Positions 49,843 to 50,502 of a stretch of 64,000 nt of DNA are shown in pieces (the stretch's first letter is position 1; every line of letters begins with the position of its first letter). A model generated the notes under the pieces. The model saw only the letters and a list, made by a program, of their open reading frames with translations. It ran no database searches and was not told the origin of the DNA. The DNA is taken from contig NZ_CP054698.1 of assembly GCF_014023275.1 (NCBI RefSeq), positions 4,030,001-4,094,000 of the forward strand, given 5' to 3'. Both the position numbers and the translations under genes were made by a program. Source of the DNA: Nostoc edaphicum CCNP1411 (GTDB lineage Bacteria > Cyanobacteriota > Cyanobacteriia > Cyanobacteriales > Nostocaceae).

Positions 49843-50502
49843 TTACTTCCAGTTAAAGACACGAATATTGTTAAAGTTAATCACGTCAATTTTTATACTC
49901 TGAACATAACTTGCTAATTTGAGGTCATCAGTTAGTACAAGATACTTCCCTTTAGATAAAGTCAGGATTCCACAGTCAGTAAGTCCGAATTTGATAAATT
50001 TTTCAGTATTAACAGCATCTAAACTATAGGACTAGTATTTGATTTATGAAAAAATCTAAGTATATGTAGGGTGTGTTACGGCTTCCGTAACGCACCAAAA
50101 TCTTCGGATGGTGCGTTAGCCTACGGCATAACACACCCTACTCAAATATTTTCAGAAATCAAATATGATTCCTATACTTGCGTAGTATTCATCCAAAAGA
50201 GCAACATTTTTAACAAATTGAGCAAATATTGCAAAGCACTGAGAACGTTCCTGTTCACCAAGTTGATTTGCAAGGCTATTAACTTCTGTCAGAATATTCG
50301 GAGTTGTTACAAGCTTTTGAAAGCGTGCAATAAATGCTAGTAGAAGCTCATAGTCTTCTGGTATAAATTGCTGGGTTCGATTAAATCTAGTTATTCGTTC
50401 TTGATTAACACTCCCAACTAAAAAGAGAAGCAGGATATTTGTATCAATTAAAACCCCTTTTTGGCAATAACGACGAATAAGGGAAGCAATCAAATCTTTC
50501 AT
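49843..50502 (-). pseudogene. PIN-domain (VapC-like) gene split by a miniature element
   Basis: N-terminal part 50502-50177: MKDLIASLIRRYCQKGVLIDTN onward, with first PIN acid in LIDTN and second in ILTEVNSL. The 152-bp element at 50025-50176 then brings a stop (IGIIFDF*). The C-terminal part 50024-49843 continues LDAVNTEKFIKFGLTDCGI and YLVLTDDLKLASYVQSI, ending VFNWK. It holds the remaining acids in TDCG and LTDD. Removing the element and one TA restores a single frame (YYASSLDAV) of about 169 residues. The start overlaps the partner gene at 50499 by four bases (ATGA). PIN proteins are ribonucleases, often toxins. Confidence 0.85.
50025..50176. mobile_element. 152-bp TA-flanked miniature element, copy A
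   Basis: Ends TATAGGACTAGTATTTGATT and, inverted, TATAGGAATCATATTTGATT; TA duplicated. The inside is a GTAGGGTGTGTTA...TAACACACCCTAC palindrome. Identical, base for base by my reading, to the complement of 53273-53424. Interrupts the PIN gene. Confidence 0.85.

Follow-up and report, generated by a model that had tools for sequence, protein, structure and literature searches.

We analyzed a 64,000-nucleotide stretch of Nostoc edaphicum CCNP1411 (contig NZ_CP054698.1, positions 4,030,001 to 4,094,000), referred to below as the window, in which a 152-bp miniature inverted-repeat element lies inside a PIN-type nuclease gene that comes second in an operon of two. The features of this locus, and a further copy of the element in the window, are the following:

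50771-49843, minus strand: two-gene operon, partner gene then PIN-type gene (ORF list)
50499..50771, minus strand: partner gene, 90 aa, intact, with a 4-nt ATGA overlap with the start of the PIN gene (ORF list, profile, fold model)
50177..50502, minus strand: PIN-type gene, half 1, profile positions 1-106 with the first two acidic residues (ORFs, profile search)
50025..50176, minus strand: 152-bp miniature inverted-repeat element, both TA target copies included (sequence, genome copies, fold)
50175..50176, strand unspecified: TA target-site copy on the side upstream in the gene (sequence, relatives alignment)
50147..50176, strand unspecified: terminal inverted repeat, 29/30 identical to one end of the resident insertion sequence (end comparison)
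50025..50054, strand unspecified: terminal inverted repeat, 27/30 identical to the other end of the resident insertion sequence (end comparison)
50025..50026, strand unspecified: TA target-site copy on the side downstream in the gene (sequence, relatives alignment)
49843..50024, minus strand: PIN-type gene, half 2, profile positions 107-166 with the last conserved acidic sites, ending at TAA (profile search)
53273..53424, plus strand: another copy of the element, identical in sequence and not seen to interrupt a gene (genome copy search)

The split PIN-type gene and its uninterrupted relatives

The minus-strand open reading frame (ORF) that begins at 50502 enters the element, which opens with TATAGG at 50176 and closes with CCTATA at 50025, with a TA at each end, and meets a stop at 50152. 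The product is 116 amino acids (aa) long, the last ~8 being element-derived, and the gene is truncated after about 108 of 169 residues, between the second and third conserved acids. Beyond the element, 50024-49843 is an open frame of 60 codons up to TAA, 83-90% identical to loci L021-L030; its in-frame ATG, GTG or TTG codons are limited to one GTG, 13 codons before the stop and past the acids. When a profile of 52 relatives was searched against the 1360 six-frame pieces of the window of at least 25 aa, two pieces only matched at E values up to 0.01, one covering positions 1-106 of the 166 (E 1e-56) and the other 107-166 (E 1.4e-30). Because these two ranges cover all 166 positions, the halves are contiguous and complete. 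In the numbering of the intact relative P0002, D20 and E73 are on the first half and D126 and D142/143 on the second. An earlier note on this DNA had described a frame cut by a TA-flanked element that supplies a stop, with the missing half still present, four PIN acids distributed over both halves and an intact partner gene at 50499; this observation is confirmed in each of these parts.

No match to the element was found in any of 16 related PIN loci at E 1e-4, and in the 11 closest, aligned base by base, the element was absent throughout (11/11), leaving one exact 150-bp gap with aligned flanks. The net gap of 150 bp, which documents the TA target duplication here and was found likewise at two further insertion sites described below (PvuII-like and COR-TIR), bears out the claim that 152 bp minus one TA retains phase. 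An uninterrupted allele, which the earlier note had proposed to look for in related Nostoc strains, is present as a full-length frame in 12 of the 16 relatives; in the remaining four (L023, L030, L032 and L036) the frame is broken differently. A sister allele truncated at the same point was sought and not found in the best 120 of 523 homologues of the 116-aa ORF, which do include truncated forms of lesser or greater length. A candidate excision footprint in genome G025 was rejected: its frame break near the same codon is, by eye, one base short in an A run and bears no TA footprint. The same element was also rejected as the cause of other decays of this gene, as 12 further loci of the genus yielded only one 70% relative, about 230 bp from the PIN remnant of L069, while L065 and L073 hold short matches to the element ends only.

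The 152-bp element and its insertions in the genome

The 30-nt ends of the element are 25/30 identical to each other, and the sequence between them, with a stop codon in all six frames, holds no transposase gene. Folded end to end it forms a hairpin of -65.1 kcal/mol (z -10.4). We searched 8,316,316 bases of this genome, including one contig of 7,733,505, and scored 40 of 163 candidates, which gave nine full-length copies (six identical, three at 99%), all of 152 bp and two of them inside the window. Nine copies at 99-100%, together with the end-to-end fold, exclude a chance palindrome. More distant relatives measure 149-152 bp at 70-75% identity. For the resident insertion sequence (IS) that has the same ends, scoring 40 of 111 candidates gave 16 full-length copies (1138-1142 bp), and a further, split copy lies on contig C5. 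The transposase of this IS is encoded by two overlapping frames with Pfam HTH and DDE_3 matches (DDE_3 E 1.8e-15). Since the element is short, lacks a transposase, duplicates TA and shares its ends with this IS, it has the anatomy of a miniature inverted-repeat transposable element (MITE) of an IS630-type insertion sequence. Copies at E 1e-30 or better occur in 12 of 53 genus genomes, this one included, and copies of at least 98% identity outside this genome only in G052 and G041 (among scored candidates, 16 per genome); the element family is young or travelling.

For five of the nine copies the site is empty in relatives, and each of the five lies in or at a mobile-element, restriction, TIR or nuclease gene. 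Besides the PIN gene, a copy splits an HTH-PvuII-like restriction endonuclease gene (L003:180-1373; G000:C6 near 1502449-1502600), where PF09225 is matched over positions 1-87 of 155 here vs 1-155 in G047. The G047 site is empty, with flanks 99% identical over 657 and 1003 bp; two more loci were compared, with an empty site again in L056 (78%) and alignment of one flank only in L055. The neighbouring methylase frame is open across the whole stretch read. Another copy (L005; G000:C6 near 7103382-7103533) has a COR-domain ORF on one side and, in the same frame, a TIR-domain ORF on the other. This site is empty in 5/5 compared relatives, and the open frame that holds the TIR match measures 917-1203 aa in four of them and 278 aa only in L061. 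The copy in L002 truncates a Rep_1 gene at its 3' end (empty site in 4/4 compared), and that in L001 is on the 5' side of a TnsA-like gene in a Tn7-like region, the single relative compared being empty. At the remaining four copies, no frame of at least 70 aa enters or spans the element. With nine copies in all, and as insertions into essential genes would go unseen, the apparent gene-class preference is a lead and not a test of bias.

Several further observations concern the element and its surroundings. A 224-bp element with both family ends and a different middle (L013:1001-1224) indicates that two or more MITE types may use the same resident IS. At 53253-53424, 1 bp separates the end of a dispersed repeat, GGAGAGTGACAGAAGAGGG, which has 41 exact places in the genome, from the start of the second window copy (53273-53424). 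The L007 element copy and the L020 IS are placed likewise next to it, a hint that the repeat could be a preferred insertion target for the element and the IS.

The predicted PIN-fold nuclease, its partner and their decay across the genus

The assignment of the split gene to the PIN family is carried by a fold comparison. The Pfam PIN models match neither half nor the close intact relative P0002, and they match 11 of 52 family members, weakly (best E 0.00057). In Pfam, NCBIfam, PADLOC and PHROGs, no usable family was found for the halves, the intact relative or the partner. Searched by sequence against PDB, P0002 had no hit at E 1, and the PIN profile and the partner profile each had a single row at chance level (E 1.5). 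Comparison of a structure model of the intact relative indicates a PIN fold, whose last acidic sites and strands are missing from the truncated product. Among the 52 homologues, D20 and E73 are invariant and D126, D142 and D143 are conserved at 90% or more; we take these residues to be the catalytic acids of PIN proteins. The PIN identity claimed earlier therefore holds as far as the predicted fold and the conserved acids are concerned, whereas the expected match to Pfam models is absent in P0002 and weak in the 11 family members that show it.

The partner is predicted to consist of one helix and a four-stranded sheet, PepSY/cystatin-like, and by this model it does not resemble a classical VapB; no Pfam antitoxin match was obtained. 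PepSY itself matches 4 of 59 family members (best E 0.00039), and DNA_pol3_a_NI, with 5 of 59 (best E 0.0005), was set aside as the fold comparison was preferred. The partner precedes the PIN gene in 16/16 related loci, an intact partner stands beside all 24 fully readable intact PIN loci, and the tight operon occurs in scattered cyanobacteria. Our literature search found no paper on a PIN domain with a PepSY-type antitoxin, and for PIN domains, cyanobacteria and MITEs nothing that, by its listing, dealt with such a pair. The pair looks like an undescribed family.

A PIN-family match is present in 26 of 53 genus genomes, this one included. We tallied the state of both genes over 43 distinct loci, not randomly chosen, counting once those held twice (under a name and a G handle, or as two G022 rows). 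Both genes are intact in 24. An intact partner without an intact PIN gene was found in eight (the window, L023, L030, L036, L070, L089, L092 and L098), a broken PIN gene or remnant without a partner in six (L065, L068, L069, L071, L072 and L073), and both genes broken in three (L032, L066 and L067). No intact PIN gene without a partner was seen among the fully readable loci; G050 (L046/L076), with an open PIN frame, no partner and four N, is not judgeable, and L097, whose PIN frame is divergent and matches the profile in part, beside an intact partner, was left out of the counts. Counting G050 as the one PIN-only case, a sign test gave 8 vs 1 (p 0.039) for partner-only over PIN-only loci, and 5 vs 1 (p 0.22) when restricted to PIN-first loci. 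The PIN frame of L029 is open and has lost a conserved acid (D143G). Within the partner gene of L067, in G022, lies a different repeat of ~160 bp (L067:1197-1361), the PIN gene being broken too.

Three Rfam Cyano-1 RNAs were located in the window, at 49557-49632 (+), 49717-49792 (+) and 63670-63745 (-). The first two are in tandem just 3' of the PIN gene, where several relatives have, by eye, similar sequence. Upstream of the operon, 50871-51092 encodes a 73-aa kinase-like ORF, which by eye resembles the beginning of a 172-aa gene that L089 has complete next to its partner gene. A scan for regulatory sites (promoter-like 11 vs 5.9, standard deviation 2.7, in shuffles; terminator-like 1 vs 0.8) was not used as evidence.

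Origin and meaning of the insertion

We consider it very probable that a MITE, moved in trans by the transposase of the resident IS630-type element, cut a presumably dispensable PIN nuclease gene of a two-gene operon. The transposase would have mobilised the non-autonomous 152-bp element, which would then have inserted at a TA within the second gene and duplicated it. The truncated PIN-fold nuclease has presumably lost its activity, because it lacks one half of the predicted active site together with the final strands. The loss would be tolerated if the gene is dispensable, its product probably being the toxic half of a toxin-antitoxin-like pair that still has its protective partner intact. 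This account builds on direct observation of the element and its copies, the TA duplication, the empty sites and the split profile, together with the predicted PIN fold of the intact relative. Several points weigh against it: no sister strain of the same species with the locus was identified, the private changes of the allele are compatible with time since insertion or with ordinary divergence, and the 116-aa product could keep some other role. As to the toxin-like character of the gene, the sign test rests on few, non-randomly chosen loci, and seven of the 12 further genus loci have no partner match (six broken PIN genes or remnants, and G050 with its open PIN frame and unreadable letters).

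The interpretation of the earlier note is for the most part borne out; its placing of the inactivation as very early is to be read in a relative sense. The identical copies suggest a recent burst, which agrees with this; on the other side, the interrupted allele carries four private non-synonymous vs one private synonymous changes, including P84Q in a column that is invariably proline in 52 homologues. Eight close relatives with intact frames have 0-7 private non-synonymous and 1-5 synonymous changes, so that the count of the interrupted allele is unremarkable.

The 150-bp net insertion, a multiple of three, and the undamaged flanks could also describe a phase-variation switch in which exact in-frame excision of the element reactivates the nuclease. 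We regard this as highly improbable. All nine near-identical copies are 152 bp wherever they are located, so the in-frame length is a property of the element family. The strain itself showed no empty allele, and its interrupted allele has the additional change at an invariant residue. Moreover, ISY100, an IS630 relative studied in vitro, is reported to cleave two nucleotides inside its 5' ends (PMC2170065), and by this likeness exact excision would not be the expected product, so the kept phase predicts no reversion. Scarcely more credible is a functional split, in which the 116-aa N-terminal protein, for instance as an inactive decoy that binds the partner, or both halves separately would work. 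The first half is indeed open and still in the operon with its ~8 foreign residues, and the second is conserved relative to L021-L030, but the element has a stop in each frame, the lone GTG of the second half comes too late to include the acids, and the truncation removes the final acidic sites and strands of the PIN model.

How the nuclease functions is a far closer question, and we give only slightly less than even chances to the alternative that it is an ordinary accessory RNA-processing enzyme whose repeated loss is neutral decay. Some source annotations read rRNA-processing protein FCF1, PIN folds cover many non-toxins, structural hits of our model included, 415 pseudogenes are reported for this genome (PMC7551626), and at six further loci of the genus there are only PIN remnants or broken copies, with no partner. 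Opposed to this are the close coupling of the gene to a small partner in an operon of scattered cyanobacteria, the patchy presence across the genus, and the fact that partners without an intact PIN gene are commoner than the reverse.

The insertion of a MITE into the PIN gene is ordinary in kind, and unusually well documented; MITE-made pseudogenes are known in cyanobacteria, Nostocales included. In the account of Anabaena sp. 90, 15 of 147 MITEs lie inside disrupted ORFs and form pseudogenes, and they are classed as type II because there is no resident IS with the same repeats (PMC3542288), whereas in the genome analyzed here such an IS is resident. The 107-bp RUP element of Streptococcus pneumoniae, with proposed mobilisation by IS630-Spn1 and a proposed preference for sites into or near IS elements (PMC3049150), is similarly short and non-autonomous, and its terminal repeats resemble those of an IS630-family element resident in the same host; it differs in sequence and host, the Nostoc element being 152 bp, with five of nine copies in or at genes and their sites empty in relatives. 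Nezha, for which mobilisation by ISNpu3-like elements has been proposed (PMC3049150; cited in PMC10969869), is likewise a cyanobacterial MITE with terminal repeats common to a resident IS, as compared by description only. ISY100 of Synechocystis (IS630/Tc1/mariner) also duplicates a TA target and belongs to the same broad family as the resident IS, but it is autonomous, was studied in vitro and has 24-bp ends (PMC2170065). The operon recalls VapBC toxin-antitoxin systems, including PIN-COG2442 of cyanobacteria (PMC2701414; PMC3834315), in that a small partner gene overlaps and precedes a PIN-fold gene, toxicity and neutralisation being putative here; the modelled helix-and-four-strand partner without an antitoxin match sets it apart.

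The less ordinary part of the finding would be, judging from sequence, the toxin-first pattern of decay, with the PIN and PepSY-like pair. It is possible, although we hold this tentatively, that the pair is an undescribed toxin-antitoxin type with a cytosolic PepSY/cystatin-like inhibitor as antidote in place of a DNA-binding VapB, and that Nostoc lineages shut down such modules toxin first, here through the burst of one element that also broke a PvuII-like endonuclease and a TIR-COR link. A single genome and its genus supply the source IS, the identical copies, the TA duplication and five insertions with their empty sites, so that target tolerance becomes testable. Should the partner prove to be an antitoxin, PIN modules would gain a new inhibitor fold through this locus, and the toxin-first decay, with eight partner-only loci and no fully readable PIN-only one, would be evidence of addiction logic.
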